The notes below the pieces were generated by a model. It ran no database searches. It was not told the origin of the DNA and saw only the letters and a list, made by a program, of their open reading frames with translations. The translations under genes and the position numbers were made by a program. From a virus: 22,297 bases of DNA. Positions 3,808 to 18,624 of this stretch are shown piece by piece (the first letter of the stretch is position 1; every line of letters starts with the position of its first letter). Where the stretch lies: positions 1 to 22,297 of IMG/VR virus record IMGVR_UViG_3300035126_000343; one strand, written 5' to 3'.

Positions 3808-4134
3808 ATGGCGTTCGTTCGCAAGAAGGTCAAAACCTTCAAGTGGCCTGTAACCATCGAAGAACCTGCTGACGGCGGCACGTTCGACTCCAGCACCTTC
3901 GACATCACCTTCAAGCGCCTGGGCCGTAAGGAGTTCGGCAAACTCAGCGAGAAGGGCGATCTGCCCCTGCTCAAAGCCGTAGTGCTCGGCTGGAACGGCA
4001 TCAGCGACGAAGACGGCACCGACCTCCCCTTCTCCATCGAAGCGCTCACCGACTTCGCCGACGACCCCTACTGGGTGCGCGGTGTCCTGAAGGCTTACAC
4101 CGAGACCTTCGACGGCGCTAAGCAGGGAAACTGA
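3808..4134 (+). CDS. G: Tail assembly chaperone, G-like (zero-frame product)
   Basis: This 108-residue protein reads KTFKWPVTIEEPADGG, then FDITFKRLGRKEFGKL and later LTDFADDPYWVRGVLKAYTE. This is the pattern of small chaperones that bind the tape measure protein and recruit tube subunits. The last sense codons (CAG GGA AAC) contain the slippery heptamer GGGAAAC immediately before TGA. The gene therefore gives this short product and, after a -1 shift, a longer G-T fusion of about 228 residues. Lambda G/GT are 140 and 279 residues. No Shine-Dalgarno is seen. The gene starts a new transcription unit after a terminator and a TACACT box. Confidence 0.8.
   Translation: MAFVRKKVKTFKWPVTIEEPADGGTFDSSTFDITFKRLGRKEFGKLSEKGDLPLLKAVVLGWNGISDEDGTDLPFSIEALTDFADDPYWVRGVLKAYTETFDGAKQGN
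4125..4131 (+). promoter_or_regulatory. Programmed -1 ribosomal frameshift site (GGGAAAC)
   Basis: GGGAAAC fits X_XXY_YYZ exactly with zero-frame codons CAG-GGA-AAC and is followed directly by the TGA of the G-like gene. Lambda uses GGGAAAG at the same place. After slippage the next codon is CTG at 4131 in a frame that stays open to TAA at 4491-4493, and whose product has the T-domain pattern. The adjacent stop codon and the GC-rich bases after it could promote pausing. Confidence 0.85.
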
Positions 4135-4493
4135 GAGGCGCGGCGGAGTTCTGGGTAAGCGGAAGCACTAAGCGCGAGGAGGACAAGACCGAAGACGATG
4201 CCAAAGTCTTCGGTTTAGTCTTACCCGAAGACGCGAAACCCAAACCCGCCGCCCCTTACGAGGTCTGGGACGAAAACTGGGACATCGTAATGATGTTCCT
4301 AAGAATGCAGACGCAGTGGAACACCACCATGGCGGGCTACCTCGGCTTGAAATACGAGGTGCTGCTGATGCCTGGCGGCCTGATGGACCTATACTGCGTG
4401 GACGACCGCCTCGACATGCTGGAGGGCCTGCAGATCATGGAAACTGCCGCTCTCAGCGCGTTGGCTAAGGGGGAGGATAAGCAGGATGGCTAA
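4131..4493 (+). CDS. T: T-domain of the G-T tail assembly chaperone, expressed by -1 frameshift
   Basis: The -1 frame relative to G is open from before the slippery site to TAA at 4491-4493. It adds 120 residues after the shift. They begin LRGAAEFWVSG, pass through a charged linker rich in Glu, Lys and Asp, then reach YEVWDENWDIVMMFLRMQTQW, MAGYLGLKYEVL and ETAALSAL. This last part looks like the DUF1799 family, the T-equivalent in many siphoviruses. The first in-frame ATG is only at 4290, which would cut off the linker. Together with the slippery site this argues that it is made as a fusion rather than from its own start. The stop overlaps the start of the tape measure gene by 8 nt. Confidence 0.8.
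   Translation: MRGAAEFWVSGSTKREEDKTEDDAKVFGLVLPEDAKPKPAAPYEVWDENWDIVMMFLRMQTQWNTTMAGYLGLKYEVLLMPGGLMDLYCVDDRLDMLEGLQIMETAALSALAKGEDKQDG
4472..4477 (+). promoter_or_regulatory. Shine-Dalgarno for the tape measure gene
   Basis: GGAGGA inside a GGGGGAGGA run lies 8 nt before the ATG at 4486. It is one of only a few strong ribosome binding sites in the window and fixes the start of the tape measure protein. Confidence 0.8.
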
Positions 4494-7400
4494 GCAGATT
4501 GAGGATATTATTGTACGTTTAGGCTTAGAAAAGTTTGAAGGCTTAGATAAGATCCGCAGCTCGTTTCGTGACTTAAGCAAAGTCACAAAGATGTCCGAGC
4601 AGGACATCATAGGTGCCCGCGATAGTATATTTGAATTTGCTAAGACAGCCGGTAATAGTGAAGCAGTAACCAAAGGTCTTGTATCAGCACTACAAGGTCT
4701 GCGATCTCAGGCCGATATGTGCGGCGATGCGTACGAGGAACTAAGGCGCGATATTGAAAACGTAGAAGCAGCTTCACGCGGGTACACCGCACAAGCAGTA
4801 GCCCAACGGGCTAGCCTCTCCGCCCAGTACGGGGCTATTACAAACAATACAGAAGCACTGCGGCGTCAGCGTACCGCTCTGATTGAGCTGCAGCAAGCCA
4901 CCCGAGGAGGATCGCAACTATTTACGCAGCTCGGTACAGACATACAGAGAACCACAACTAGACTTGAAGAAATAGAAGGAATACAAAGGCGCACCAACGC
5001 AACTTTGAACAGGGGACTACCCTCGTCTTCGGCAAAAATCCGTAGAGACTTACAGGATGTACGCGATCGAATCTCCCTAGAACAGGCAGAACTAGAGCGC
5101 CTTCAAACACTTACTGCTGCAGAACGCAGACAATTCAGCCAAGGCACAGAGCTACGAGGACAATCTGGTGTAACCCGAGCCATTGCCGAACAGGAGCGTA
5201 TACTTGCGACCTTTAGACAGCAAGCAGGCGCCCTAGACCTAAGCGAAAACGTAAGACAACGACGGCAAGCGGTAAGAGACGCAAATGCTCTCTTCATGTC
5301 GCCAGACTTTACTGGCACCGGCTCGCGTACCGCAGAAGGCTTAACCCGCAGCTTTGGCGATCTACCTAACACTCTCGCAGGTATAAACCAAGGCCTTTCT
5401 GAGCTGCGCAACCGGCTTGACAATACAACTATAGGTACAACTGCGTTTACTGATGCGGCTATACGCGCAGCTGCGGCGCAACGGGAGCTGAGAGAAGCAA
5501 CACAGGGAGTAGCGGCGGCTTTTGTGCAGCAGCTAAGAACAGGCGATATTGCGCCATCCCTAACAAATCTGCGGGAAGTCATATCTTCTGTACGCACTGA
5601 GCAGGGACTGCTCGACACAAGCAGCACCGGCGGTGCCCGCGCATTCCAGCTACTGGAACGTCAAGCTCGCTCGCTGGAGCGGCAGCTCAGCGCACTGCAA
5701 GCTACGCAGGCAAGTCTTGCTGCCACCCCCGTAAGCGGCTTTAGGGAATTTTCCCAGTCAATAACACCTCAAGTAGGGGACGCGGCCATACAGGGCTCCA
5801 TCCGCAGAAATAGGGAGCGGCAAGAAAGAGAACGTCGCCGCCTGGAACGTGAAGCCGCCGACTTCTATTCCAGCCAACCGACAGCGCCTCTACTGCTTCC
5901 TGCCGCTGGGCAAACAACGTCCACAGGACGTGGCATGGCAAGAAGGCGACTAAGGATGATAGAGGAGGAGGGACCGGAGTTCGGTACATATGGATCTGGG
6001 GTAGAGACGGTGTTTGGCGAATCCACACTTCGTCGCCCGCGTGCTCGTGCCTTTATGGGCTTACCAGCGTTGCCGGAAGCCGAAACCGGACTTCCCTCCC
6101 GCTCGGGTACATCTCCGCAAGCCATGGAAGCGCAACGCGCTACCGCTGCCCGTACCGCGACTGACCTAAGTGCGTACAGACGCGCAATACGCGAAGCCGC
6201 CGCCGCTAACATAGGCAGCGTAAATAGTCTAAACGCATATAAAGACGCGCTGGAAAATATGCGCAGCGCTATTGCACCGACAAATGCAGACTTTGGACGC
6301 TTGACCAAGCGTATAGAGGCTGTTGATACGCAGATAGAGAAACTTAACCTACGCACTACTCGCCGCAAACCGCTATCGGGGATGCAGCTCGCCCAGGGCG
6401 TCGGCGCGGCGCTTAGCGGCGGCATCTTCGGCGGCCCCGAGGGCCTGATCGGCGGCCTGGCCGGTCTACCTTTTGGTGTGGGCGGCGCTTTCGCTGGCGC
6501 GGCTTTTGGTGCGCAGGTCGGCATGTTCCGCCAGCAGCTCGGCACAGTGACCGAATACTCGGCCCGCATCGACAAGCTCCAGATCGCTCTGCGGGGCATC
6601 GTCGGCTCACAGGACGCTTACAGCCAGGCTTTGTCCGCAGCCGCCTCGGTTACCCGCGACCTCAACATCCCCCAGGAGGTTGCGATCCAGGGCATGACCC
6701 GACTGAGCGCCGCCGTCAAGGGCGCCGGTGGCACGGTTACCGACTCGGCCTTCGCGTTCCGCGCGGTTAGCGAGGCAGTGAAAGCCACTGGTGGCAACGC
6801 CGAGCAGGCCGATGGCGCCCTCCTCGCACTCACGCAGGTCTTCTCCAAGGGCAAGGTCAGCGCTGAAGAACTCAACCAGATCGCTGAGCGACTGCCCGGC
6901 ACCTTCACCCTCTTCGCCAAGGCGGCCGGCATGACCGGCCCTCAGCTGCAAAAGGCGCTCCAGCAGGGTCAAGTAGGTCTGAACGACCTCATGAAGTTCC
7001 TGCAGCTAATCAGTACCGAGTACGGACAAACGGCACTCAAGATCGCCGATTCTAGCCAAGAGGCCGGCGCTCGCCTAAGCGTTGCAATGAAGAACATGCA
7101 GCTAGAGGTGGGACGCGCTCTGCAACCTATCGGCGCCGCCTTGCAAAACGCATTCGTTGACTTTATTACTAACACCACACCTGCAGCGGTTGCAGCGTGC
7201 AAAGCAATCGGAAACGCACTTACGTTTATCGTCGTAGATCCGGTAGGCAGCGAACTCGCTAAGCTAACCCTTAATGTAGGTTTAGCTACCGCCGGAGTAT
7301 TACTGCTTGGACCCGCACTTAAGGCCCTAGCTGCAGCTTTTACATACGCTAAGACGCAAGTTTTGGCATTGACTGCTGCTATGGCTAAGAATCCGTTGAC

Positions 7401-10400
7401 GCTGCTTGCCATAGCGGCTACAGCTGCAGCTATAAAAGTTGCAGATGTCCTACTCAACCAAAAACGACTTAATGATGAAGTACAGCGTAGCTTAAACATA
7501 GCGTCTAAAGCTCCCTCGGGTAGCGTAGCATCTCAAATTGCCAAAACAGAGTACGAGCTTCAGGCCGCACGTAAAAAAGCTGCCAGTGAACTAGATAAGG
7601 CATCCGATCCCTTTAATTTCGGGTTCAGCGCAGCTGAAGCTGCAGCACAGGTTGTACGCCTTGAGGATAAGCTAGTTAGCCTTAAAAAGACCTATAAGGT
7701 TCGTCTTGAACTTGATACTATATTCAAGGGAATAGATCCTACCGCTGGTGTACCCACTGGATACAAAATTGTTAATGGGCGTCTAGCTTACCTTAGCCCT
7801 GGGCAGGGCTACATCGACGCTGAAACAGGTAAGCCTGTTGCTACTGGACCTACCAAATTCGCGGAAGGACAAGCAGATGGTAAAGACAAGCAAGCTAGTT
7901 CCTACCTACAAGCGTTTGAGCAGCGCGAAGAAGCCATTACACAGGCACGCCTTCAGCGCGAAGAGCAGATTGCGGAACTCCGCAAGCAGTCGCTGGAACA
8001 GGCCCGCCAGCTGGAGCGCCAGTTCGCCGATGAGCGGCGTGCCCTGGAACGTGAGATAGCTCAAAGCAAGCGGGGTACGGCGGACATTGAGGAGGACATC
8101 GCTAGGCAGCAACGCCTCTTGGCCGGCGAAGACCCTCGCCTGATTGAAGCCGAGCAGCGCATCGCTGATGTCTACCGCGAAGCCCGCGAACGCGACATCA
8201 AAATAAAAGAAGACTACACCGACCGCGAGTTTAACCGCGCACGCACCGTCGCGGACTTCCAGAAAAACACAGCGGACCAAATCAACAAAGCTAACGAAGC
8301 GTACGCTAAAACGCTTGGCAATATACACCGCACCTACGCACGCGACGTGGGCAAAATTCTGGATGAAGCCAGCGGCAAGACGGCTAGGCGTTTGGCTGCG
8401 GCGGGCAGGCTAATTACAGCTATATCTGATCTACAAGCCTTACAAGTACAGCGCGTGCGGCTCGGTGTGTCCCCTGTGCCGTCTGCGGCAGATATGGCTC
8501 CCGAGTATAAACAAAAGTTAGATGATATAGAGCGCTTCAATAAGCAGCTTTTGCAGTCACGCCGTCAACAACAAGTTACTGCAGATAGCTTCTTTACCGC
8601 TTATGCGGACCAGCCACAGTTTGAAGACGTTGCAGGTTTGCAACCATTTCCGCTTCAAAAGATGCTGAAGCAGATCGGGCGACCTTTCACTCGTTTGTAC
8701 AACAGAATTGAGTCGGCGGCTGAGAGTGCGTACCCATATTCGCGTAGAGAGGTCAAGCAGATGCTTGCACCGGATCCTAAGCGCACGCAGCGTGTCCTAG
8801 AGCGGGCGGAGAGAGTAGAAAACGTAAGACAAACATGGTCACCCGTCGATGCAGAGTGGCGGCAAAGAGACAATAACTGGAGGAGCAACCCGCGCAGCAA
8901 GCCCGCCGCAGCAAGCTTCTCCACGTTTGAACAGGTTTTAGGAAACTTAACAGACACGGTATTCAAGAAGCTTAACTCACAGGGCGCCATTTACGGTATT
9001 CTTGGCGATATTAGTGACTATCTATCCGATGCCCAGCTTCGTATAATAAAAACTGGAATTATGGAGCAGCTAAAGCAGGGCACTGCTCCTAGTCGTCTAC
9101 TGCAACACACAGACGGCAGGTCTAGTTTCACGTCAAGGCCTAATATAAAGAGTGCAATCAAAAAGTTGACGCTACAAGCTATTACAGAGCTGCAACGAGC
9201 TGGCGCAAAACCTGGCATAGCTGGTGAGTATAGCCCACTTATTTTCGATCAGCCGCGCATCGTACCAGGCGTAGCCATAAATTTTGAAGGCGCTATGCTG
9301 CCAGGCGGCTTTGGAACGTCGAAGCTTGCCCGCAACCTAGGAAACGTCGCCTCCGGCCAACTGCAGGGTGTACTTGCAGGACTAACAAACACACTCATTG
9401 CCGGAACCCCTTACCGCGTAGGCGATCCAGTTGGTCCGAACATCCGCCCGATTCCTGTGCAGCCGGCCACGAAGGGCGCTCCAGAATCCAGCGCCGCCGC
9501 TGAGGATGCCGCACTATCCCAAGGTGCTAAGCAGCTACAGCTTGATCTACTTAAGATTCGCGTAGATAGCGTAAAACCACTTGAAGATCAAACACGCCGC
9601 CTGCAGGAGCAAAACGACCTATTCAAAGCACAACAAACTTACTTACAGCAAGGCATTACGCCGGCACTTGCAGAACAGTTCGCCCAAGTCGATCAGCTGG
9701 GAGCGTTGCAGCGGCAAATAGCCGAGACGGAAAATACAGATGCCGTAAACAGAGCCCGTACTGCGGGGGCTAGTGAGCAGCAGATACAGACGCTTATTCA
9801 GCGTCACAGTACGCTAACCGCTCAGATCGACTCCAACGTGCAGCGCGTAAAAGACTTGGCTGTCGCCTATGAAGACGCCCAGAAGGCAGCACGCTTCACA
9901 CAGGATGAGCGTATCGGCCTCGGCCTACGCGAAGGCGCCGAAGCTTACGTCCAGTCAATCGGCACCATGCGCGAGGCCACGGCCCAGCTCGCCCAGACCG
10001 GCATCAAGGGCGTCGAGGACGCCATCTTCAGCCTCGTCACCACCGGCACCGCCAACTTCCGCGAGTTCGCCGCCTCGATCCTTAGGGATACGGCTCGCAT
10101 GATCATTCAGCAGCTAATTCTGCGCAGCGTTATGCAGATCATCGGCGCCGTTGCTCCTAGTGGTGGTAGCTTCGGTAAGGGGTACTTCGATCCAATTACG
10201 GGCAAAGGGGCCGCTGGACCGAACTTCGGTTTTGCCATGGGCGGCGCTTTTGCGAAGAACGGCATCGTCCCCTTTGCCATGGGTGGCGCGTTCCAGCACG
10301 ACGTGACCGCTTACGCCATGGGTGGTGTCGTCGATCAGCCGACTATGTTCAAATTCGCTGATGGCGGCGCCGGCCGCCTCGGGCTTATGGGCGAGGCTGG

Positions 10401-10635
10401 CCCGGAAGCCATCATGCCCCTACGCCGCCTCCCCAGCGGAAGGTTGGGCGTCGAGGCAGGCGGCGCTGGAACGGGCGTCGTCGTCAACGTGAACGTGGAC
10501 GCCAAAGGCACCGCCGTCGAAAGCGATCAAAGCAATGGCCAAGCGCTAGGCGCGGTCGTAGGCGCAGCCGTGCGTGCGGAGATCGTCCAGCAACAACGCC
10601 CAGGCGGACTGCTTGACTCCAGTCGCCGGCGATGA
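4486..10635 (+). CDS. H: Tape measure protein
   Basis: At 2049 residues this is by far the longest gene and sits directly after G/GT, as tape measure genes do. Residues 1-600 are charged helical/coiled-coil sequence rich in Arg, Gln and Glu. Residues about 631-685 are Gly-rich and hydrophobic (GGIFGGPEGLIGGLAGLPFG). Residues about 690-840 match the conserved tape-measure N-terminal domain, including the segment QALSAAASVTRDLNIP and SAEELNQIAERLPGTFTLFA. Residues about 918-995 are a second hydrophobic stretch, probably membrane-interacting. Residues about 1143-1285 form a strong coiled coil. The C-terminus has three AMGG repeats (about 1916-1947) and the classical GLMGEAGPEAIMPL motif at 1966. 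It acts as the ruler for tail length and is ejected on infection. Codon use is visibly mosaic. Confidence 0.93.
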   Translation: MAKQIEDIIVRLGLEKFEGLDKIRSSFRDLSKVTKMSEQDIIGARDSIFEFAKTAGNSEAVTKGLVSALQGLRSQADMCGDAYEELRRDIENVEAASRGYTAQAVAQRASLSAQYGAITNNTEALRRQRTALIELQQATRGGSQLFTQLGTDIQRTTTRLEEIEGIQRRTNATLNRGLPSSSAKIRRDLQDVRDRISLEQAELERLQTLTAAERRQFSQGTELRGQSGVTRAIAEQERILATFRQQAGALDLSENVRQRRQAVRDANALFMSPDFTGTGSRTAEGLTRSFGDLPNTLAGINQGLSELRNRLDNTTIGTTAFTDAAIRAAAAQRELREATQGVAAAFVQQLRTGDIAPSLTNLREVISSVRTEQGLLDTSSTGGARAFQLLERQARSLERQLSALQATQASLAATPVSGFREFSQSITPQVGDAAIQGSIRRNRERQERERRRLEREAADFYSSQPTAPLLLPAAGQTTSTGRGMARRRLRMIEEEGPEFGTYGSGVETVFGESTLRRPRARAFMGLPALPEAETGLPSRSGTSPQAMEAQRATAARTATDLSAYRRAIREAAAANIGSVNSLNAYKDALENMRSAIAPTNADFGRLTKRIEAVDTQIEKLNLRTTRRKPLSGMQLAQGVGAALSGGIFGGPEGLIGGLAGLPFGVGGAFAGAAFGAQVGMFRQQLGTVTEYSARIDKLQIALRGIVGSQDAYSQALSAAASVTRDLNIPQEVAIQGMTRLSAAVKGAGGTVTDSAFAFRAVSEAVKATGGNAEQADGALLALTQVFSKGKVSAEELNQIAERLPGTFTLFAKAAGMTGPQLQKALQQGQVGLNDLMKFLQLISTEYGQTALKIADSSQEAGARLSVAMKNMQLEVGRALQPIGAALQNAFVDFITNTTPAAVAACKAIGNALTFIVVDPVGSELAKLTLNVGLATAGVLLLGPALKALAAAFTYAKTQVLALTAAMAKNPLTLLAIAATAAAIKVADVLLNQKRLNDEVQRSLNIASKAPSGSVASQIAKTEYELQAARKKAASELDKASDPFNFGFSAAEAAAQVVRLEDKLVSLKKTYKVRLELDTIFKGIDPTAGVPTGYKIVNGRLAYLSPGQGYIDAETGKPVATGPTKFAEGQADGKDKQASSYLQAFEQREEAITQARLQREEQIAELRKQSLEQARQLERQFADERRALEREIAQSKRGTADIEEDIARQQRLLAGEDPRLIEAEQRIADVYREARERDIKIKEDYTDREFNRARTVADFQKNTADQINKANEAYAKTLGNIHRTYARDVGKILDEASGKTARRLAAAGRLITAISDLQALQVQRVRLGVSPVPSAADMAPEYKQKLDDIERFNKQLLQSRRQQQVTADSFFTAYADQPQFEDVAGLQPFPLQKMLKQIGRPFTRLYNRIESAAESAYPYSRREVKQMLAPDPKRTQRVLERAERVENVRQTWSPVDAEWRQRDNNWRSNPRSKPAAASFSTFEQVLGNLTDTVFKKLNSQGAIYGILGDISDYLSDAQLRIIKTGIMEQLKQGTAPSRLLQHTDGRSSFTSRPNIKSAIKKLTLQAITELQRAGAKPGIAGEYSPLIFDQPRIVPGVAINFEGAMLPGGFGTSKLARNLGNVASGQLQGVLAGLTNTLIAGTPYRVGDPVGPNIRPIPVQPATKGAPESSAAAEDAALSQGAKQLQLDLLKIRVDSVKPLEDQTRRLQEQNDLFKAQQTYLQQGITPALAEQFAQVDQLGALQRQIAETENTDAVNRARTAGASEQQIQTLIQRHSTLTAQIDSNVQRVKDLAVAYEDAQKAARFTQDERIGLGLREGAEAYVQSIGTMREATAQLAQTGIKGVEDAIFSLVTTGTANFREFAASILRDTARMIIQQLILRSVMQIIGAVAPSGGSFGKGYFDPITGKGAAGPNFGFAMGGAFAKNGIVPFAMGGAFQHDVTAYAMGGVVDQPTMFKFADGGAGRLGLMGEAGPEAIMPLRRLPSGRLGVEAGGAGTGVVVNVNVDAKGTAVESDQSNGQALGAVVGAAVRAEIVQQQRPGGLLDSSRRR
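10231..10326 (+). repeat. FAMGGAF-type repeats near the tape measure C-terminus
   Basis: Three short in-frame repeats encode FAMGGAF, FAMGGAF and YAMGGVV, starting at 10231, 10273 and 10312. The DNA word GCCATGGG(T/C)GG recurs in each. Gly-rich repeats of this kind precede the GEAGPEAI motif in many tape measure proteins. Confidence 0.7.
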
Positions 10636-11801
10636 CGACATTTACATACACACCCGATTTTCCTGCAGAAGAGCGGTCGCAGCCGCGCATCCGTGGGTAC
10701 GAGGCAAATGGATTCACACTCCGCGTCGAAGATGGAATAAACCTTCTCACAGATAAGTGGCCACTTACATTCTCCGCTCGCAACTCCACCGATCGCACTA
10801 ATCTGCTGAGCTTCTTCGCCACGCAGAATGGCACAACCCCCTTCACCTGGGTAACGCCCTTCAACGAAACAGCTCAATTTATCTGCACAACTTGGGACTT
10901 AACCCTCGACTCGTGCCACCTTACAACAATCTCCGCTGAGTTTCAACTGGTCTACGTACCAGGGCAAACCAACATACCCGTAAGTAATGTACCTTCAACC
11001 GCCTTTACATGGATCCCTGACTTCACTACATCAAGAAACTTAGATAGCAAAGCGCGTAGGTCCGAATACGGGGATGGTTACGGACAGTCCGTAACTTTTG
11101 GCATAAACGCAGAAACAGAGAAGTGGTCACTCGTACTCAATAATCTCACCAATACGGAACGCGATGCCATCCGCGCTTTCTTGCGTGGAGCGGCCCGCAC
11201 ACCTTCATTTGAGTGGCAGAGCCCCTTAGGCGACACCGGCGACTATATCTGCGATGCCTGGACAACAACCTTTAACAAGTTTAACAACAGTTCGATTCGT
11301 GCTGACTTTACAAGAGTCTACGGTACGTTCCTTGTGTCCTTCGCAGGCTACGCACCAGGCTTCAACGCAATTATCTCTTACGACTTTGTGGGCGGCGCTG
11401 CTTATAGGGTCGCTCCTGGTATCACTGCAGTTATAGAGGCGGACTTCACAGGCGGATCCGCCCTTGCACCCGCAGCAGGTATCACCGCCACGATAGAAGC
11501 CGCCTTTGTCGGCGGTTTAGCGTCTACAGAAGCGCCTACACCACCTCCTTCTAGCACCGAAAGCGCTAGAAGCTTCTGGAGCGACTGGGCTTATTACGAC
11601 CCCGACATATTCTTGTACATCGAAGAAGCAACTGCGGATACAGGTAGCACTACAAGCTTCTGGAGCCACTGGAAGCACTACGACACCGAGATATTCCTGT
11701 ACGAAGAGGGCACGCCTACAGCAGCCGAGACGCCCGTGTACTGGAACAGGTGGCAGTCCTGGACCGAAGACCCTCCGCTGCTTTTTGAGGAGTCGTCCTA
11801 A
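10632..11801 (+). CDS. M: Minor tail protein M with two tandem M domains and C-terminal repeats
   Basis: This 389-residue protein starts in an ATGA overlap with the tape measure gene. Residues 2-115 (FTYTPDFPAEE through FTWVTPFNE and ISAEFQLVYV) form one phage minor-tail M domain. Residues about 125-235 (FTWIPDFTTSRN, RRSEYGDGYGQSV, RADFTRVYG) form a second, diverged copy; the second keeps the GDGYGQ motif better. Lambda gpM is 109 residues with a single domain. Residues about 238-298 contain three copies of an APGxxAxIxxxFxGG unit. From residue 314, three copies of a Trp-rich unit (SFWSDWxYYDxxIFLYxEE) with 27-28 residue periods run to the end. The M core builds the tail tip. The repeats look like an exposed appendage of unknown function. 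Confidence 0.85.
   Translation: MTTFTYTPDFPAEERSQPRIRGYEANGFTLRVEDGINLLTDKWPLTFSARNSTDRTNLLSFFATQNGTTPFTWVTPFNETAQFICTTWDLTLDSCHLTTISAEFQLVYVPGQTNIPVSNVPSTAFTWIPDFTTSRNLDSKARRSEYGDGYGQSVTFGINAETEKWSLVLNNLTNTERDAIRAFLRGAARTPSFEWQSPLGDTGDYICDAWTTTFNKFNNSSIRADFTRVYGTFLVSFAGYAPGFNAIISYDFVGGAAYRVAPGITAVIEADFTGGSALAPAAGITATIEAAFVGGLASTEAPTPPPSSTESARSFWSDWAYYDPDIFLYIEEATADTGSTTSFWSHWKHYDTEIFLYEEGTPTAAETPVYWNRWQSWTEDPPLLFEESS
11349..11525 (+). repeat. Three-fold Gly-rich beta repeat in the M-like protein
   Basis: Three tandem units of about 19 residues share the pattern (A)APG-I/F-xA-x-I-x-x-DF-x-GG: YAPGFNAIISYDFVGGAA, VAPGITAVIEADFTGGSA and PAAGITATIEAAFVGGLA. The regular hydrophobic/Gly spacing suggests stacked beta strands. 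Confidence 0.75.
11571..11798 (+). repeat. Three-fold Trp-rich repeat at the M-like C-terminus
   Basis: Units start at residues 314, 342 and 369 of the host protein. Each carries (S/Y)-(F/Y)-W-x-x-W followed by YYDPDIFLYIEE or a variant. The first two units share the exact DNA word AGCTTCTGGAGC (11571 and 11655). The third has diverged (VYWNRWQSWTEDPPLLFEE). Confidence 0.8.
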
Positions 11802-11808
11802 GCCTCGC

Positions 11809-11814
11809 TACACT
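11809..11814 (+). promoter_or_regulatory. Candidate promoter -10 box (TACACT) at the start of the accessory block
   Basis: GCTACACT lies 37 nt before the ATG at 11852, in the 50-nt gap after the M-like gene. TTGAGG at 11785-11790 is 18 nt upstream and could act as a weak -35. The word and spacing match the elements at 3767 and 15126. No terminator is visible between the M-like stop and this box. Confidence 0.45.
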
Positions 11815-11851
11815 GAGCACATAAGCGTCCATCATCTACGCCCTACCCGTT

Positions 11852-12220
11852 ATGGCAGCCCCCAATATCAAGAGCGGCAGCTCCGTCACGACCGTCACCG
11901 GCAAGACCGTGGGCTATGCGGTGACTACCTCGATGGCTGCAGCGTTGAGCAATGGCGCCAGCAGCGGCAAGGTGCTGAAGATTAACTCGGTGTACTGCGC
12001 CAACGTGGACGGCTCCGCAACTGCTGACATCAGTTTGGAGCACTACAACGGCACGACGGGGTTTGCGATCGGCAAGACCATCGCCGTACCGGCTGACGCC
12101 ACTCAAGTCCTCGTAACCCGCGAGGCATACATCTACCTAGAGGAAGGCCACAGCCTCCGCGCACAGGCCAGCGCTGCTGGCGACCTGGAGCTGGTCATCA
12201 GCTACGAGGACATCAGCTGA
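11852..12220 (+). CDS. Small virion protein, fibre- or decoration-type
   Basis: The 122-residue protein (MAAPNIKSGSSVTTVTGKT, then KVLKINSVYCANVDGSATADISLEHY and a final DLELVISYEDIS) is all-beta in appearance. It follows the layout of small phage structural proteins in which VYxxNVDGxAxADISxE strands are followed by IAVPADATQVLV and LEEGHSLRAQAS. I recall similar proteins among cyanophage virion components; this is from memory. It opens a separate unit behind a TACACT box and is coupled by TGATG to the first LamG-like gene. It is probably a structural base or trimeric partner for those proteins. GC-rich, even codon use suggests good expression. Confidence 0.6.
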   Translation: MAAPNIKSGSSVTTVTGKTVGYAVTTSMAAALSNGASSGKVLKINSVYCANVDGSATADISLEHYNGTTGFAIGKTIAVPADATQVLVTREAYIYLEEGHSLRAQASAAGDLELVISYEDIS

Positions 12221-13014
12221 TGCTCGGCTTCAACGGCGGCCTCATGGGCGTTCAGCGCACGCCTGCAACCAGCTCAGCGCCGGGCCTCTGGTTCCAGAAT
12301 GAGCAGAGCGTGGCGAAGCGTGCCGGGATTTGGCCGCAAGTCCTCACCGATCCCACGGCAGGGCTGTCACCTGTCCTTTGGTACGATTTTGCCGATGAGA
12401 CTAAAGTGACAACTTCGGGCTCAGCAATCACTGCGGTTACAGACAAGGGAAGCAATGGCTGGACATTATCAGTTGGTGGCACAAGCCCACAGTATGTGAC
12501 TGGCATCAACAGTAAAAAGTGCTTGGACTGGGGCACAAGTCCATCTCACGCCAACTTCATGTATAACAGCAGCAGCACTTCCACAACAATCGGCGAGGTG
12601 TATGTAGTTGTCGATGCAAGCTTCGGTGGCACTGCAAGCAATTATGCCGGCCTTTTTACTTCGTACACCAATGCCTGGTACATGCTGGCATACAACCAAT
12701 CGCTTGATGAGTCGGGCACAGGCTTCAATCGGCTGTTTGTCAATGGTGGCACCAGCAACAGGTTCTCAGGAGCGTTATTTAACTCGCCTTCTATTGACAA
12801 CCCTGCGATCATGCGTATCAATAATTCATCCAGCACCACGTTCAGCACTACTGGCGGCTTCCAGATTGGCAACGATCGCGGCAACTCAAACCTTAATCGC
12901 GGCTGGTGCGGCTTGATTGGCGAATACATCGTCTTCTCCTCTGTGCTGAACAGCACTGATCGAGACTCACTGCAGGCATGGTTGGCCTTCAAATGGGGCA
13001 TCACGCTGGTCTAA
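12220..13014 (+). CDS. LamG/ConA-like lectin domain protein, copy 1
   Basis: The 264-residue protein has a short head segment (MLGFNGGLMGVQRTPATSS), an Ala/Trp-containing linker (to about residue 45), and then a concanavalin A/laminin-G-like domain. The domain signature is AGLSPVLWYDFADETKVTTS, followed by ITAVTDKGSNGWTL and a distal FQIGNDRG, GLIGEYIVFSSVL and FKWGITLV. Such domains bind glycans or other surface ligands; in phage tails they sit on fibres or tip appendages. It is one of three tandem paralogues in this block. The start overlaps the previous stop (TGATG). No signal peptide is present. I infer a host-surface-binding or virion decoration role. The ligand cannot be read from the sequence. 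Confidence 0.75.
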   Translation: MLGFNGGLMGVQRTPATSSAPGLWFQNEQSVAKRAGIWPQVLTDPTAGLSPVLWYDFADETKVTTSGSAITAVTDKGSNGWTLSVGGTSPQYVTGINSKKCLDWGTSPSHANFMYNSSSTSTTIGEVYVVVDASFGGTASNYAGLFTSYTNAWYMLAYNQSLDESGTGFNRLFVNGGTSNRFSGALFNSPSIDNPAIMRINNSSSTTFSTTGGFQIGNDRGNSNLNRGWCGLIGEYIVFSSVLNSTDRDSLQAWLAFKWGITLV

Positions 13015-13016
13015 CC

Positions 13017-13430
13017 ATGCTTTATTCCCACAACGCCACCGCCCCAGCGCCCCTGCCGCACCGCATCCGCTTTGCGGACGGCAGCACCCGCACGGACGCC
13101 AGCACCTTCACGCCTGACGAGCTGGAGCGTGCCGGCTACTCCGGCCCCTACGAGCGCCCCGAGTGCAACCCGAAGCTGGAGACGATCGACTGGGACGGCA
13201 GCGCCTTTGTGGTGCGCCCCTACAGCTTCAACGAGCTGCAAATGCAGCACGCCAAGGTCCGCGATCAGCGCATCGAGCTGCTCAAGGCAAGCGACTGGAC
13301 GCAGATTGCTGACTACGACCTCGGCGCTGATCGTGAAGCTTGGGCCGCCTACCGCCAGGCCCTGCGCGACCTGGCAGATGCGCCCAACCCATTTGACATC
13401 ACCTGGCCGCAGCCACCCGCCACCACCTAG
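13017..13430 (+). CDS. Tail fibre assembly chaperone-like protein (Phage_tail_APC type)
   Basis: This 137-residue protein ends with a region typical of small fibre-assembly chaperones: VRDQRIELLKASDWTQIADYDL followed by EAWAAYRQALRDLADAPNPF and a closing Trp-Pro-rich segment. In that family the R-x-x-R-x-x-L-L-x-x-(S/T)DW and W-x-x-YRQ-x-L-R-x-L patterns are characteristic. The N-terminal half (residues 1-75) is a beta-rich domain with Asp-Gly-Ser turns. I chose the ATG at 13017, two bases after the previous stop, because a longer frame beginning at 12978 would lie inside the LamG gene. Its place between two LamG copies suggests that it helps them fold or assemble. No Shine-Dalgarno is visible. 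Confidence 0.7.
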   Translation: MLYSHNATAPAPLPHRIRFADGSTRTDASTFTPDELERAGYSGPYERPECNPKLETIDWDGSAFVVRPYSFNELQMQHAKVRDQRIELLKASDWTQIADYDLGADREAWAAYRQALRDLADAPNPFDITWPQPPATT

Positions 13431-13432
13431 CC

Positions 13433-14233
13433 ATGTCCCCCGTATTCGCCACCAACGGCGGCCTCTCCGGCGCCAAGCGCAACATCAGCACTGTCGCTGC
13501 TTCAGGCATCTGGATGTTGGAAGAGCAGGCACTGGCAAAACGGATCGGAACCTGGCCAGTCAGCGGAAATCCAATACCCGGGCTATCGCCGGTACTGTGG
13601 TACGACTTTGCTGACGAAGCAACAGTTACTACATCTGATACAGAAATCACGGCAGTTGCTAGCAAAGGAAGCCGTAACTGGACTCTTACCAAGAGCAGCA
13701 CTGGCCCGCAGTACGTGACTGGTATCAACGGCAGAAAATGCCTGGATTGGGGATCGAGCGGGGCACATAACAACTTTATGAGAACAACTGACACAACTTC
13801 TACTGCGATTGGTGAGGTATATGTAGTTGTTGACGCCAATTTCGGCAGCGCCGGATTTGCTGGGGGCTACGCTGGCTTATTTACGGGAACAGGTGGAGGC
13901 GCGTGGTACGTGCTCGCCACAAACGGTGGAATGACAGAAAATGGAACAAATTTTGATCGTATGTACGTCAATGGCGGCGCTAGCAACAGATACTCAGACC
14001 TCCTATCCACCCCGAGTATCGACAATCCGGCAATTCTTCGGTTAAATAGCTCTTTCAATCCATACTTTAATGCTGCGGATGGCTTTCAGATTGGAAACGA
14101 TCGCACCAACGGAAACCGTGGCTGGTGCGGTTTGGTTGGTGAGTACGTTGTATTCTCATCCGCGCTCAGCAGCGTAGACCGCGATGCTGTTCAGGCTCAC
14201 TTGGCAGTGAAGTGGGGCATCACGCTGGTGTAG
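13433..14233 (+). CDS. LamG/ConA-like lectin domain protein, copy 2
   Basis: The 266-residue paralogue of the gene at 12220 has the same plan. It has an N-terminal GGLSGAKRNISTVAASGIW segment, then SGNPIPGLSPVLWYDFADEA and VASKGSRNWTL, and ends with FQIGNDRTNGNRGWCGLVGE and VKWGITLV. Differences concentrate in the middle surface-loop region (about residues 95-200), where copy 2 has an extra SAGFAGGYAG segment. The SGNPIPGLSP linker is shared with copy 3 but not copy 1, so copies 2 and 3 may be the more recent pair or have exchanged this part. It starts two bases after the chaperone-like gene (TAGCCATG), with no Shine-Dalgarno. Confidence 0.75.
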   Translation: MSPVFATNGGLSGAKRNISTVAASGIWMLEEQALAKRIGTWPVSGNPIPGLSPVLWYDFADEATVTTSDTEITAVASKGSRNWTLTKSSTGPQYVTGINGRKCLDWGSSGAHNNFMRTTDTTSTAIGEVYVVVDANFGSAGFAGGYAGLFTGTGGGAWYVLATNGGMTENGTNFDRMYVNGGASNRYSDLLSTPSIDNPAILRLNSSFNPYFNAADGFQIGNDRTNGNRGWCGLVGEYVVFSSALSSVDRDAVQAHLAVKWGITLV

Positions 14234-14235
14234 CC

Positions 14236-14283
14236 ATGTTCTGCTTTTCTAGCCCCACCGCTTTCGCTAGCCCGAGGACTTAG
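14236..14283 (+). CDS. 15-codon mini-ORF between LamG copies 2 and 3, possible gene remnant
   Basis: ATG at 14236 follows the copy 2 stop by two bases, and TAG at 14281-14283 is followed after two bases by the ATG of copy 3. Both edges are TAGCCATG. The peptide (MFCFSSPTAFASPRT) aligns loosely with the first residues of the chaperone-like protein that occupies the same position between copies 1 and 2; both have a T-A-x-A motif at residues 8-11, and the DNA shares CCACCGC at the same offset. It may be the surviving start of a deleted chaperone copy. It may also be only a reinitiation spacer that hands ribosomes on to copy 3. Confidence 0.35.
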   Translation: MFCFSSPTAFASPRT

Positions 14284-14285
14284 CC

Positions 14286-15068
14286 ATGCCTATGTTCGGT
14301 TACAACGGTGCCCTTCGCGGCAAATCCCGCACCCCTTCTTTATCCAGTGCCAGCGGTATCTGGGATTGCGGTGAGCAGTGTGATTCGCAACGCGCAGGCA
14401 TTTGGCCCATTAGCGGAAATCCGATTCCAGGACTATCCCCAATTCTATGGTATGACTTTGCCGATGAGTCAACTGTCACAACGTCAAGCGGACAAATTGC
14501 GCAAATTACAGACAAAGGAAGTCTTGGTCGCACGTTAACTGCCAGCGCTACCGGACCCACCTACGCGACAACTATTAACGGGAAAAAAGTATCAAACTGG
14601 GGAACGTCCACACATACCAACTATCTACGCAACAATTCAGCAACATCGTTTACTATTGCAGAATTGTATATTGTCGCAGACAGTAGCGACACAAGTAGTT
14701 TTTCTGCCTATTCTGGCTTGGCGACAAGCGTAAGCGGCACAGACATTTTTCTGAATGGCAGTGTAACAGGATTTGAGGGACCGTTTGGACTGGTAAATAG
14801 GGTTTTCCTTAACGGAGGAACAAGTAACCGCTATAGCAACATTTTTACTGAAATTGAAAGTCCTTGTATTCTTAGAGCCGTAAACAGCGCCGGCACCGCA
14901 ACTACTTCTACCGACGGTTTCCAGATTGGTATGGATAGAGGTAATGGAGGACGAGGCTGGCGTGGCTTAATCGCCGAGGTCGTGTGCTTTTCCTCTGTGC
15001 TCGGCAGCACAGATCGCGCAAGCGTACACTCGTATCTGGCCGCCAAATGGGGCATTACTCTCGCCTAA
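14286..15068 (+). CDS. LamG/ConA-like lectin domain protein, copy 3
   Basis: The 260-residue third paralogue has a head segment (MFGYNGALRGKSRTPSLSS) that resembles copy 1 (GFNGGLMGVQRTPATSS) more than copy 2. It then has SGNPIPGLSPILWYDFADES, shared with copy 2, and ends FQIGMDRGNGGRGWRGLIAE and AKWGITLA. This mosaic of similarity suggests recombination among copies. The central loops (about 95-180) are unlike either relative, and codon use is more AT-rich there. A predicted beta-sandwich lectin of the virion surface, as for the other copies. It ends the coupled run of genes; a 101-nt gap with a candidate promoter follows. Confidence 0.75.
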   Translation: MPMFGYNGALRGKSRTPSLSSASGIWDCGEQCDSQRAGIWPISGNPIPGLSPILWYDFADESTVTTSSGQIAQITDKGSLGRTLTASATGPTYATTINGKKVSNWGTSTHTNYLRNNSATSFTIAELYIVADSSDTSSFSAYSGLATSVSGTDIFLNGSVTGFEGPFGLVNRVFLNGGTSNRYSNIFTEIESPCILRAVNSAGTATTSTDGFQIGMDRGNGGRGWRGLIAEVVCFSSVLGSTDRASVHSYLAAKWGITLA

Positions 15069-15125
15069 GCCTGCGGTGCGTCTTTAACACAGTTGCCCTT
15101 AATCCCCCTTTCGCGCCAGGTCCGC

Positions 15126-15131
15126 TACACT
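15126..15131 (+). promoter_or_regulatory. Candidate promoter -10 box (TACACT) in the gap before the distal fibre genes
   Basis: GCTACACT lies 38 nt before the ATG at 15170, inside the 101-nt gap 15069-15169. It is the third occurrence of the same word at almost the same distance from a start codon. No matching -35 box is seen at 16-18 nt. The gap holds no terminator hairpin that I can find. Confidence 0.45.
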
Positions 15132-15169
15132 TGTCATAACTCCAGCGGTTCTACTTTTCTCGTAAACCC

Positions 15170-15592
15170 ATGGCCAGCCTGATTTACCTATCGTGCCTGG
15201 ACGACAGCGCCAAGGGCAACATAGATTTTGATACGGATACGTTTAAGGTTTTGCTTGTTACCGCGTCCTACGTACCGGACAAGCTTACCCACACCAAACG
15301 TTCCGCTGTAACCGACGAGGTTACTGGCACGGGTTACACTGCTGGCGGTGTTACCTGCACCTGTACGGTTGCAAAGTCCACGGTAAACAACGAAGTAACG
15401 CTTACATTCGCTGCTGTAAACTGGCCGACAGCAACACTAACGGCCCGCGGTGCCGTCTACTTTAAGTCCAGGGGTGGAGCGTCATCAGCAGACGAGCTTA
15501 TCGCCTACGATGACTTTGGCGCCAACATCTCAAGCACCGCTCAGACCTTCTATCTGAACTCTTCGGTCCTTACCCTGCGCAATCTGACATGA
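15170..15592 (+). CDS. Phage virion-associated protein, fibre-type, function unknown
   Basis: The 140-residue protein begins MASLIYLSCLDDSAKGNIDF and has DTFKVLLVTASYVPDKLTHT followed by VTDEVTGTGYTAGG and ending FYLNSSVLTLRNLT. This pattern (DxFKVxLVTxxYxPxKxTHxxRSxVTxEVTGTGYTAGG) is one I recognise from many phages as a conserved, uncharacterised structural protein encoded among tail fibre genes. The protein looks all-beta. The next gene starts in an ATGA overlap, so the two are coupled. It is preceded by a TACACT box and a pyrimidine-rich leader (GTTCTACTTTTCTCG) without a Shine-Dalgarno. Role inferred: a tail appendage component. Confidence 0.65.
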   Translation: MASLIYLSCLDDSAKGNIDFDTDTFKVLLVTASYVPDKLTHTKRSAVTDEVTGTGYTAGGVTCTCTVAKSTVNNEVTLTFAAVNWPTATLTARGAVYFKSRGGASSADELIAYDDFGANISSTAQTFYLNSSVLTLRNLT

Positions 15593-16011
15593 GTACCATC
15601 GTAACTCGTTCCGGCAAGGGCACACCCCTTACTCACGCCGAACTCGACAGTAATTTTAGCAATCTAAACACCGATAAAGCTGGCTACGTCACGGGCGAGG
15701 GCGGTGCGGTAAGTCAAGCAACGAGCAAGGCAACAGGCGTAACGCTTAATAAGCGATGCGGTCAGATTACGCTTAACGGCGCCTCTCTTGCAGCATCTAC
15801 CACTGTAAGCTTTACGCTTACGAATAGCACAATCGTAGCCACTGACATCGTTGTGCTGAACCACGTATCGGTAGGTAACCTAGGCGACTATGCGCTTAGC
15901 GCTAGGGCCGCAGCAGGATCCGCTACTATCGCAGTACGCAACCTCACTGCCAGTTCACTTTCTGATGCACTCGTCATTGGCTTTGCGGTAATCAAAGCAA
16001 CCGCCGCATAA
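15589..16011 (+). CDS. Tail fibre-like protein with trimeric-fibre style module
   Basis: This 140-residue protein has a leader (GTPLTHAELDSNFSNLNTDK) characteristic of phage fibre proteins; this segment usually marks an N-terminal attachment region. It is followed by GEGGAVSQATSKATGVTLNK, CGQITLNGASLAASTTVSFTL and a final beta region ending in FAVIKATAA. The second part is a small module found at the ends of many phage fibres, I believe a trimeric beta domain. It lies last in the accessory block, 3 nt before the L-like gene, and is translationally coupled to its upstream neighbour. Likely a short tail fibre or tip protein that touches the host surface. Confidence 0.65.
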   Translation: MSTIVTRSGKGTPLTHAELDSNFSNLNTDKAGYVTGEGGAVSQATSKATGVTLNKRCGQITLNGASLAASTTVSFTLTNSTIVATDIVVLNHVSVGNLGDYALSARAAAGSATIAVRNLTASSLSDALVIGFAVIKATAA

Positions 16012-16014
16012 GCA

Positions 16015-16773
16015 ATGAATTACGTTGTACTCGGATATTACGTATCTGGGTATGCCGAGGGCGACTCGGTTATCACGTCCTCGCTCCAGGAGGTTTCCCC
16101 TGGAGCGGTAATTGAGTTGTTCCAGCTCGTACTGAATACCGCACAACACGGCATAAACCAGACATTCTACTTTCACGCTGGCACCAATCAGCTTGAGAGC
16201 AACGTAGTTTGGCAAGGAAATACGTACCAAGCATTTCCCATCGAGGCCGAAGGGTTTGAGTGGGACGGTCAAGGCTCCTTACCCCGCCCTAAAATCCGCG
16301 CCGCCAACGTCCTAGGAACTTTATCAAACCTCATACTCTCCTTACCCGAAGGCTTAGAAGGTGCCAAGGTCGTGCGCATCCGCACCCTGGCACGCTTTCT
16401 CGATGCTATCAATTTCCCATCCAGCAGCAACCCAACCGCCGATCCCAACGCCTCTTGGGAACCGGAAATTTACTACATAGACAGAAAAGCGTCGGAAACT
16501 CGCACAGCAGTCGAGTACGAATTAGCCAGCGCATTCGATCTCGTAGGTGTTAGAGCCCCTAAGCGTCAATGTGTTGCCCGCTGCCAATGGGTCTACAGAT
16601 CGGCCGAATGTGGCTACACAGGAATCACCTATTTCAACGACAAGGATCAGCCCGTAGGCTCTTCTGCACAAGACTCGTGCAGCAAGCAGCTCTCCGGGTG
16701 TGAGCTACGATTTGGGCAGTACGCCCAACTGCCATTCGGCGGCTTTCCGGGCATTGGAACCTTCTTCGTATGA
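16015..16773 (+). CDS. L: Minor tail protein L, iron-sulphur cluster type
   Basis: The 252-residue protein follows lambda gpL. A central region [20 protein letters not shown] leads into [13 protein letters not shown], then [16 protein letters not shown]. The C-terminal region carries cysteines at residues 190, 199, 222 and 229 ([26 protein letters not shown]). The spacing 9-23-7 equals, as I recall it, the spacing of the four cysteines that bind the [4Fe-4S] cluster in lambda gpL (173, 182, 205, 212). An extra Cys lies at 186. gpL is part of the tail tip and joins M to the hub. The first about 20 residues ([16 protein letters not shown]) have no counterpart I recognise in lambda. The gene overlaps the next by ATGA. 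Confidence 0.9.
16082..16107 (+). promoter_or_regulatory. Strong hairpin inside the 5' part of the L gene
   Basis: CGCTCCAGG (16082-16090) pairs perfectly with CCTGGAGCG (16099-16107). Extra G-C pairs are possible toward a TTT loop. The stem buries an AGGAGG (16088-16093). The hairpin lies within codons 23-31 and does not end in a T tract, so it is not a terminator. It might slow ribosomes or set mRNA stability, or be coincidence. Confidence 0.4.
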
Positions 16774-17474
16774 GCTGGAAAGACGCCGCACTAAGCCATG
16801 CACAAGCGCTCGATCCGCACGAGTCATGCGGCCTTGTTGTAATTGTAAAAGGTAAGGAAACTTACTGGCCCTGCAAAAACATCGCAACTTATCCAGAGCA
16901 GATGTTCAGTATCTGCCCAAACGATTATGCGGAAGCGGAACAGGCCGGCGAAGTTGTGGCCATAGTACACAGTCATCCCGCATTCCCGACTACTGCCAGC
17001 AACGCAGACATGGTTGCAGCGGAAAAAACAGCTTTGCCATGGCACATCGTCAACCCCAAAACGCTGGCCTGGAGCACGTACACGCCCTGTGGCTACGTCG
17101 CACCGCTCATCGGTAGGGAATGGGTCTGGGGCGTGCAGGATTGCTGGACTCTTGTCAGGGACTGGTACGCAGAGCAGGGTATCGCTTTGCCCGACTGGGA
17201 GCGCCCCGTCAACCCTCTTGACTTTGCCGACGCACCCATCTTCGATGCGTGCTGGCCCGCTGCCGGCTTCAGGGAACTAAGCGACGACGAAGACTTACAA
17301 CCTGGCGACGCACTGCTTATGTCAATCCAGTCAAACACAGGACTGAATCACTGCGGCGTCTACATCGGTGATGGCATGGTACTCCACCACCTACGCGGAA
17401 GACTCAGCAGCCGCGACATCTACGGAGGCTGGCTCCTTAAATGTACCGGAAGGAGGTTGCGTTATGTTGCGTAA
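16770..17474 (+). CDS. K: Tail tip protein K: JAMM-type + NlpC/P60 peptidase
   Basis: The 234-residue protein has two domains, as lambda gpK does. Residues 1-110 are a JAB/MPN (JAMM) domain with Glu18, the metal motif HSHP at 67-70 and Ser77/Asp80 in SNAD, all present. Residues 115-234 are NlpC/P60: catalytic Cys125 in [12 protein letters not shown], His194 in [10 protein letters not shown], and the His206/His207 pair as the likely third polar residue. Such proteins take part in tail tip assembly and may cut peptidoglycan peptides during entry. The start is an ATGA overlap with L. The stop overlaps the I gene by 11 nt. Both active sites look intact, which suggests real enzymatic activity. Confidence 0.9.
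17451..17456 (+). promoter_or_regulatory. Shine-Dalgarno deciding the start of the I gene
   Basis: AGGAGG lies 7 nt before the ATG at 17464, inside the end of the K gene. An upstream in-frame ATG at 17368 would add 32 residues unlike gpI and lies wholly within K. The Shine-Dalgarno and the match of [16 protein letters not shown] to I-type N-termini fix the start at 17464. Confidence 0.85.
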
Positions 17475-18624
17475 GATCCGGCTATACGGAAGCCTTGCGA
17501 AATTCGTAGGCACCCGAGTCCTAGAGGCAGACGTACGCACAGCAGCAGAAGCCGTGCGCTTTCTTGTCACTAATTTTGATGGGCTTGAACAGCACATGGC
17601 TGACAAGCACTACAAAGTAATCACGCATACCGCAATAACACTAGACGAACTACACGATATAACTAATGTAGACACCATTAAGATTGTGCCAGCCGTCGAA
17701 GGCTCCGGTCCCGTGGGCCGTATTTTAGCTGGCATCGGACTTGTCGTTCTTTCCTTTTTCGTCCCATTTGCTGCTCCTTTGCTTCTTGGCATAGGCGCAA
17801 GCTTGGTGCTCGGCGGCGTAGCACAGCTGCTTACGCCAGTTCCGCGACTAGGACAGGGAGAAGGCTCGATAACAGACACAAAAAGAAGCTACAACTTCTC
17901 TGGTATTCAGCAGACGAGCCGAGCTGGCACGCCAGTACCGCTTGTTTACGGCAAGACCCTAGTAGGTAGCGTTGTTATATCCGCAGGCATTTCTGACGAA
18001 GTGCAGGTAGGCGCCTCCGCTCCACCGCCCACAATTACAATATCTGGCACAGCTCCGAACCAAATACTTACCGCGCCAAATGTATGCGAAATTAGGTCAA
18101 TCCAATGGTTCCGCAACGGTGTGCCTATCCCCGGTGCAACGCAAAGTCAATACGCGCTCACGTCGCTGGACTACGACCAAACAATTACCGCCAATATCGT
18201 ATGCTTTGACGGCAGCACAGTAATCACCGAGAATTTTGACGTACCTTTTGAGCCAACTGCCTACACGTACTGGCGAGCAGTTACGCCAGGAGGCGTATCA
18301 GGCTGGCTTCGCACTGATCAACATAAAGCAAGGTATATAGGAGCTGCTGATCTACCGGATCATTGTGGTCTTGACCCGGAGGGGGAGCGTGACTGGTTCC
18401 CTGGTAAAACTTACACAATGGCAGGGCCTTGCAGTCTTGGCGGATACCTGGGCGGGGTGTTTGCTGTGCCGCTAAATCCGGTTCCAGGTTCGGTCAACTC
18501 CCCACTCATACAGTGGTATGGCGGTGTTGGCCAGGACAACCCTTATCCCGTAACCCCAATTTCATTTGAATTTAGCACGGATGGCGTAAACGTCACAACG
18601 ACGTGGGCTGGCATTACAGACTAA
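17464..18624 (+). CDS. I: Tail assembly protein I fused to an Ig-like and a further C-terminal domain
   Basis: The 386-residue protein is much longer than lambda gpI (about 220). Residues 1-80 form a ubiquitin-like beta-grasp domain ([16 protein letters not shown] to [10 protein letters not shown]). Residues 84-125 are a Gly-rich hydrophobic segment ([20 protein letters not shown]) like that of I proteins. Residues 141-178 hold the conserved [19 protein letters not shown]. After a Pro-rich linker (185-189), residues about 187-260 look like an Ig-like domain with Trp215 and the pattern [20 protein letters not shown] followed by ITANIVCF. Residues 261-386 are an unrecognised domain rich in Trp, Tyr and Gly. 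The I part helps assemble J and the tip and is cleaved or lost in lambda; the extra domains would be exposed. Confidence 0.85.

Follow-up and report, generated by a model that had tools for sequence, protein, structure and literature searches.

An adhesin cassette with exchanged binding domains between tail genes M and L of a lambda-type siphovirus contig

The DNA analysed here (the window) is the entire IMG/VR record IMGVR_UViG_3300035126_000343, a linear sequence of 22,297 bp that is a contig and not a complete genome. The element in question is a 4.2-kb block of genes that separates the minor tail genes M and L in its tail operon. The operon runs from a tail terminator through a phrog_290 minor tail protein, two small tape-measure-associated genes and a tape measure protein of 2049 amino acids (aa) to M, the block, L, K, I and J. 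According to Pfam and PHROG matches the homologues of M, L, K, I and J stand in lambda order downstream of the tape measure gene; M and L, which are direct neighbours in lambda, are 4.2 kb apart here. Between these two genes lie a 122-aa protein that we call p122, three paralogous adhesins, a tail-fibre chaperone of family PF16778 and two genes for 140-aa proteins, p140a and p140b (Table 1). The original prediction for this DNA, made from its letters, had described the whole block as an exchangeable adhesin cassette with promoters of its own, and both the genes that it named and two TACACT boxes at 11809 and 15126 are found where it had put them.

Table 1. Features of the M-L region of the window.
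Feature	Coordinates	Strand	Remarks
M, minor tail protein resembling lambda gpM, with two stretches of PF05939 and a long extension at the C-terminus	10632..11801	+	PF05939, E 4.7e-35
3' end of M; three aromatic-acidic repeats (SFWSDWAYYDPDIFLYIEE, SFWSHWKHYDTEIFLYEE, VYWNRWQSWTEDPPLLFEE), candidate docking peptides	11562..11801	+	direct repeat D5
GCTACACT box, promoter-like, 37 nt before p122	11807..11814	+	kept only in relatives with the M context
p122, small virion-type beta-sandwich protein, nearly invariant, candidate adaptor	11852..12220	+	first gene of the cassette, left homology arm
Adhesin 1: slot-1 anchor (about 12220-12342) and lectin-like domain	12220..13014	+	anchor hidden Markov model (HMM), AlphaFold2 model, Foldseek
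Tail-fibre assembly chaperone, right homology arm	13017..13430	+	PF16778, E 4.5e-16
Adhesin 2: slot-2 anchor and lectin-like domain	13433..14233	+	anchor HMM
Short open reading frame (ORF) after adhesin 2 (MFCFSSPTAFASPRT)	14237..14284	+	same kind of remnant in L012, L010, L096, L115
Adhesin 3: slot-3 anchor and lectin-like domain; variable part ends here	14286..15068	+	anchor HMM; slot-3 anchor also in L012
GCTACACT box, promoter-like, 38 nt before p140a	15124..15131	+	GCTACAGT / GCTACAAT in relatives
p140a, phrog_644 (family of unknown function)	15170..15592	+	flank, outside the exchanged unit in the window's lineage
p140b, C-terminal part of phrog_18251 (family of unknown function)	15589..16011	+	usual M-L occupant when the cassette is absent
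L, minor tail protein L	16015..16773	+	PF05100, E 5e-64

Relatives of p122 are encoded by 274 viral stretches or contigs, the best 80 of which show 95-100% amino acid identity, and with a median dN/dS of 0.057 the protein is under strong purifying selection. In a structure search its fold matched phage virion structural proteins. Sequence searches of p122 and the adhesins against solved structures returned nothing useful. The three adhesins are 49-61% identical to each other over about 265 aa and are thus true paralogues. An AlphaFold2 model of adhesin 1 (predicted local distance difference test, pLDDT, of 88 overall) showed a confidently predicted beta-sandwich behind a poorly ordered stretch of 44 N-terminal residues (pLDDT about 49-63). 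Among adhesins of relatives that carry the same kind of anchor, 31 of 58 matched Laminin_G_3. The chaperone gene follows adhesin 1 directly, which is the gene order of Tfa-type modules. It likely starts at 13017 (TAACCATG), as the start at 12978 in the ORF list would overlap the preceding adhesin, and its C-terminus matched the uncharacterised protein 2kz6 in a search against solved structures. The short ORF behind adhesin 2 is probably a truncated chaperone start left by a deletion. Truncated chaperone starts were also found before slot 3 in contig L012 (labels of this form denote related contigs or loci) and after adhesins in L010, L012, L013, L096 and L115, and they look like deletion scars of earlier units of an adhesin plus its chaperone. 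Neither the slot-1 adhesin protein nor the window DNA had a match among named phages.

In the 74 related contigs where both M and L could be placed, the two genes were adjacent in 9 and separated by a single gene of the p140b type in 57, and the p122-adhesin block was found in the remaining 8, three of which are near-identical. The p140b gene is therefore what normally fills the interval in this lineage, and the cassette is optional. M and L overlap by four bases in the cultured Synechococcus phage S-H1, and in L091 they are adjacent and the p122-adhesin-chaperone unit sits downstream of J. The other 140-aa protein, p140a, is 96-98% identical in L002-L005 irrespective of their adhesin content. 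Hence p140a stays with the backbone in the near relatives of the window and p140b is present in most intervals where the cassette is missing, so both lie outside the exchanged unit and the block is narrower than had been drawn.

Comparison with phages of other backbones defined the limits of what is exchanged. Homology of the window to L110, L111, L112 and L107 begins with the A of the p122 start codon (11852) and extends at 88-95% identity to 13414-13424, where the chaperone gene ends; L113 is 97.5% identical to the window across 1230 nt. The stretches of 600 nt that precede p122 form six groups between which no DNA similarity is detectable. In the tree of p122 the window is grouped with three contigs of another backbone at a support of 97. 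The reverse situation is seen with L003, which is 95% identical to the window over 15122-18281. Inside the block its similarity is limited to p122 (83%), the opening 41 codons of adhesin 1 (81%) and the chaperone (91%), and neither the binding domains nor slots 2 and 3 align. Backbone homology to L002-L005 resumes at 15122. The exchanged unit is thus p122-adhesin-chaperone (11852-13430) plus further adhesins up to 15068, and the 3' end of M probably belongs to it as well. Two further features of L003 were observed. A 345-aa protein encoded after p122 (6526-7563) has no Pfam or PHROG match, and at 7714-7900 a divergent anchor breaks off at about 39 residues, as it does in L004, L129 and L180; this short anchor may represent another type of slot or an adhesin in decay.

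Each adhesin consists of a position-specific N-terminal anchor of 40 residues and a freely exchanged lectin-like domain. Anchors begin with MLGFNGGLMG in slot 1, MSPVFATNGGLSGAKR in slot 2 and MFGYNGALRGKSR in slot 3, and three further types occur in longer arrays of up to five adhesins. An HMM built on the first 45 alignment columns detected 144 anchors in 112 loci, a tally in which L001 and the window are the same sequence counted twice. Identity was 79-98% within and 49-62% between anchor types; the types were assigned by likeness to prototypes, which builds part of this contrast in, and they agree with gene position. Behind the anchors, domain families are common to several slots (the Laminin_G_3, F5/8 type C and YSQSS types and the WYDFADE type of the window), and the same domain was found behind slot-4' and slot-3' anchors at 98.7% identity and behind slot-1-type and slot-2 anchors at 94%. 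Conversely, the segment labelled APC and the slot-2 anchor are conserved in L177, L013 and L190 to 13528/13536 and the domain behind is not, and the slot-3 anchor that the window has in common with L012 (14257-14388) is followed there by a different domain. Within adhesin 1 one swap can be seen directly. Against L111-L113 the window has 13 mismatches in the 132-nt anchor region and no more than 5-10 over the 660 nt of the domain (anchor versus domain, Fisher p 1e-5 to 2e-7), none falls in 12289-12400, and the chaperone again differs from those of L111 and L112 by about 10-12%; these counts place a breakpoint near 12289, inside the anchor at its conserved GLWFQNEQ segment. A conserved anchor with an exchanged domain behind it is also the arrangement of Klebsiella-type anchor-branch receptor-binding proteins; neither a T4gp10-like branching domain nor a depolymerase was matched by Pfam or PHROG in the block. 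Adhesins of this kind are usually 180-280 aa long, and L119 encodes one of 1720 aa (5522-10681) with a slot-1-like anchor.

Exchange of domains and of whole cassettes is evident from presence and absence, variable copy number, homology that ends sharply, domains swapped from slot to slot and the intragenic breakpoint. Relatives with the same content throughout, a single LamG copy and no sign of recombination would have spoken against an exchangeable cassette, and they differ from this picture in all three respects. Our preferred reading, to which we give a probability of about 0.8, is that a lambda-type siphovirus carries in its tail-tip operon a host-recognition cassette of several adhesins, the domains of which are swapped between phages via constant parts. 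The constant parts would be p122, the N-terminal anchors and the PF16778 chaperone, and the lectin-like binding domains would be the variable ones. Recombination in two arms, p122 with the anchor codons on the left and the chaperone gene on the right, would replace the binding domain between them, and the complete 1.57-kb p122-adhesin-chaperone unit, which occurs on unrelated backbones, would move as well. Tandem copies with position-specific anchors would allow one phage to bear up to three, and elsewhere up to five, different adhesins. The adhesins would be located at the tip of the tail, where they would bind glycans of the host surface and set the host range, and their folding would depend on the chaperone.

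Several observations weigh against this reading. Since the relatives are mostly fragments from metagenomes, their copy numbers are minimum values, and some misassembly is possible. The p122 tree speaks for exchange in that it requires at least 22 changes of context and at least 30 changes of binding-domain family, but few of its inner branches are strongly supported. No Pfam LamG model or Pfam lectin family matched the adhesins of the window, and their best Foldseek matches, ConA-like lectin modules, are weak (best E 3.5e-3, template modelling score 0.37-0.46). Calling them LamG-like paralogues, as the original prediction did, is hence right as to paralogy and fair as a guess at the fold, a predicted ConA-like beta-sandwich, and does not extend to family membership. 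Finally, the family matched by all three adhesins, phrog_10356, is categorised under head and packaging.

This last point also favours an alternative in which p122 and the adhesins are displayed on the capsid or neck, the place between M and L being only a convenient landing site, and aid reversible attachment instead of choosing the host. Among the weak structural neighbours of p122 are a pentameric capsid protein from a metagenome and a cement protein of a Helicobacter phage, and L091 and others carry the cassette at a place other than the M-L interval. We nevertheless regard a capsid or neck location as unlikely, given that the unit contains a chaperone of tail-fibre type and that the gene preceding p122 can in several contexts be recognised as encoding a tail protein (PF05939, phrog_15525, phrog_14), which has the shared terminal motif. 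It is far less probable that a LamG-like gene was duplicated in tandem within one lineage and diverged vertically with no exchange between phages. The adhesins are indeed paralogues of similar length and the same domain type, but ordinary divergence is contradicted by the near-identical unit on unrelated backbones with homology that stops at gene boundaries, by the breakpoint inside adhesin 1 and the incongruence of the p122 tree, and by slot anchors common to phages that carry different domains behind them. A dedicated variation system acting on the array, either a diversity-generating retroelement or a site-specific recombinase, would fit the high local variability of the binding domains behind a constant anchor and can practically be dismissed, since whole domains are replaced and not single points, no recombinase was recognised among the window genes scanned with Pfam and PHROG, and reverse transcriptase (PF00078) was found in 0 of 23 cassette contigs with positive controls, most of these contigs being fragments from which a distant gene could be missing.

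The exchangeable cassette does not carry a promoter of its own. TACACT is not over-represented in the window (7 found, 8.1 expected), and window-wide counts of it or of GCTACACT were rejected as promoter evidence, being at chance; only the position relative to genes is informative. Intergenic DNA makes up 5.9% of the sequence, yet it holds three of the six plus-strand copies (3767, 11809 and 15126), and all three stand 35-38 nt ahead of a start codon (P = 0.004). In related loci TA[CG]ACT occurred in 13 of 104 de-duplicated upstream segments compared with 1.7 in shuffles (none of 300 as high), and its reverse complement was not enriched there. A scan of the block for sigma-70 promoters found none where 3.7 were expected, and the boxes are thus without a recognised -35 element. 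It is credible that they are -10-like promoter elements. The box at 11809 is retained only where the cassette follows M of the window's phage type; on most other backbones p122 follows the upstream gene at a gap of about 3 nt and the box is absent. The copy at 3767 precedes a core tail gene at 3808. The boxes accordingly belong to the host phage, and the promoters ascribed to the cassette are not its own.

How a nearly invariant unit could function on unrelated tails may be connected to the gene in front of it. M of the window (389 aa) ends in the three aromatic-acidic repeats, and M of cassette-free relatives has no C-terminal extension. Such repeats are present in the gene preceding p122 in 8 of 8 cassette-bearing M-L intervals and in M of 0 of 65 cassette-free ones, counts that come from related contigs and not from 73 independent cases, which weakens their meaning for docking. 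In L156, L158 and L160 the repeat-bearing gene is a second PF05939 gene after a short M. A similar terminal motif ends other products encoded just before p122, namely PF05939 proteins, phrog_15525 minor tail proteins and an 876-905-aa protein of no family. Four cultured phages with a p122 homologue (S-SKS1, Bellamy, HTVC033P and DSL-LC04) instead have a short hydrophobic peptide, GKAIAMAIVFG-like or SPIMMGMIF, at the end of the preceding gene, and GKAIAMAIVFG-type ends occur in cultured Synechococcus, Pelagibacter and lake phages. From this we infer that p122 or the anchors may read terminal peptides of the neighbouring tail protein. A more specific proposal, which we put forward tentatively and with less than even odds, is that p122 is a plug-in adaptor that recognises the C-terminal peptide of the upstream tail protein (FW..W...DP.IFLYEE-type repeats in the present, probably freshwater, siphoviruses, or GKAIAMAIVFG-type ends) and presents the anchored adhesins on it. 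Our caution comes from the several contexts without a motif (none was recognisable before p122 in L086, L091, L109, L119, L120, L121 and L133) and from the loose tracking of adhesin number by repeat number; a one-to-one pairing of docking repeats with adhesins was discarded for this loose match. If true, an adaptor function of p122 would explain how a cassette that hardly varies can operate on unrelated tails, and why the repeats are found at the end of M only where M is followed by the cassette. Proteins encoded just before p122 in L086 (4432-4872) and L105 (9145-9603) have PTTGQIWPL near the C-terminus, which is possibly a third class of terminal motif.

Some observations concern the neighbouring genes. 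The PF05939 stretches of the window's M are arranged in tandem, M of most relatives is single-domain, and the L156, L158 and L160 contigs have a second, separate PF05939 gene. The two 140-aa proteins had been called fibre-like, a description that is not established, as they matched only phrog_644 and phrog_18251; sequence searches of p140a and p140b against solved structures gave nothing useful. In L089, L093, L098, L102 and similar contigs, p140a-like genes (about 50% and 62-66% identical to p140a) flank the p122-adhesin-chaperone unit on both sides, and p140a may thus be a recurring neighbour of adhesin modules. Ahead of the tape measure gene, two small genes of the window (3808-4134 and 4290-4493) resemble the lambda G / G-T pair, with a possible programmed frameshift across 4135-4289. 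L003 has a second copy of gene I, 67% identical, between I and J (11354-14013). The genes after J of the window look like a lysis module, as judged from the sequence and not from a family search.

As to the host, the best cultured relative of L is in Synechococcus phage S-H1 (51%) and that of p122 in Synechococcus phage S-SKS1. L105, which has an 85% identical adhesin, carries psbA. In bacterial genomes we found no relative of p122 and one weak relative of L, in a Maricaulis metagenome-assembled genome, so that no host can be assigned by that route. A picocyanobacterial host would fit best, and a freshwater origin is suggested.

Parts of this arrangement are familiar. In Alteromonas phages A5, V22 and P24, host-recognition modules of a tail fibre and a chaperone are common to morphologically distinct phages, which was read as horizontal exchange (PMC10579305). 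The unit of the window resembles these modules in that a fibre gene and its cognate chaperone are shared across phages, and differs in beginning with the nearly invariant p122, in having lectin-like domains on short anchors, and in that it may be a slot-anchored array with exchange within the adhesin gene too (PMC10579305). Klebsiella phages have anchor and anchor-branch systems of receptor-binding proteins (PMC6872550). With these the window shares a conserved N-terminal attachment segment, a strongly exchanged functional domain, several receptor-binding proteins per virion (in the window, several genes) and short conserved peptides that differ by position, whereas attachment in the window would run via p122 or the C-terminal peptide of a separate tail protein and the unit includes a Tfa-type chaperone (PMC6872550). 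In marine phages, metaviromic islands are under-recruiting regions in which host-recognition genes (lectin-like, C1q, tail fibre, tail fibre assembly) form the hypervariable part of otherwise similar genomes, as here, but the unit, its slots and its boundaries are not described in that account (PMC3909814). S-SKS1 shows the whole operon order of the window from SWZG_00009 to SWZG_00006, with a homologue of p122 (47% identical), two adhesins that have LamG-type sequence together with an anchor-like motif, and a chaperone (46%). These genes are annotated as hypothetical proteins only, the anchors are in part internal, and SPIMMGMIF takes the place of the aromatic-acidic repeats at the end of the upstream gene. 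The freshwater myocyanophage Pam3 likewise has a fibre with an N-terminal docking segment (gp24) and a Tfa-type chaperone (gp25), and neither p122 nor an array is mentioned in the portion of its description at hand (PMC9608196).

Shared fibre-chaperone modules (PMC10579305) and anchored, exchanged receptor-binding domains (PMC6872550) are thus established. What appears to be new is the near-invariant p122, the slot-coded anchors, lectin-like tips drawn from a single pool, and a peptide of the adjoining tail protein that may serve for docking; a p122-like unit is not described in the literature found, whose coverage is partial and no proof of novelty. The cassette offers a concrete, sequence-defined unit of host-recognition exchange in abundant freshwater phages, with fixed arms, a common pool of lectin-like tips and position codes for coexisting tips, and makes it a directly testable question how one adhesin module fits many unrelated tails. 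In environmental phage data p122 and the anchors can serve as markers for receptor-binding proteins that Pfam misses. Swapping of the tips may be a route by which these phages change their attachment target.

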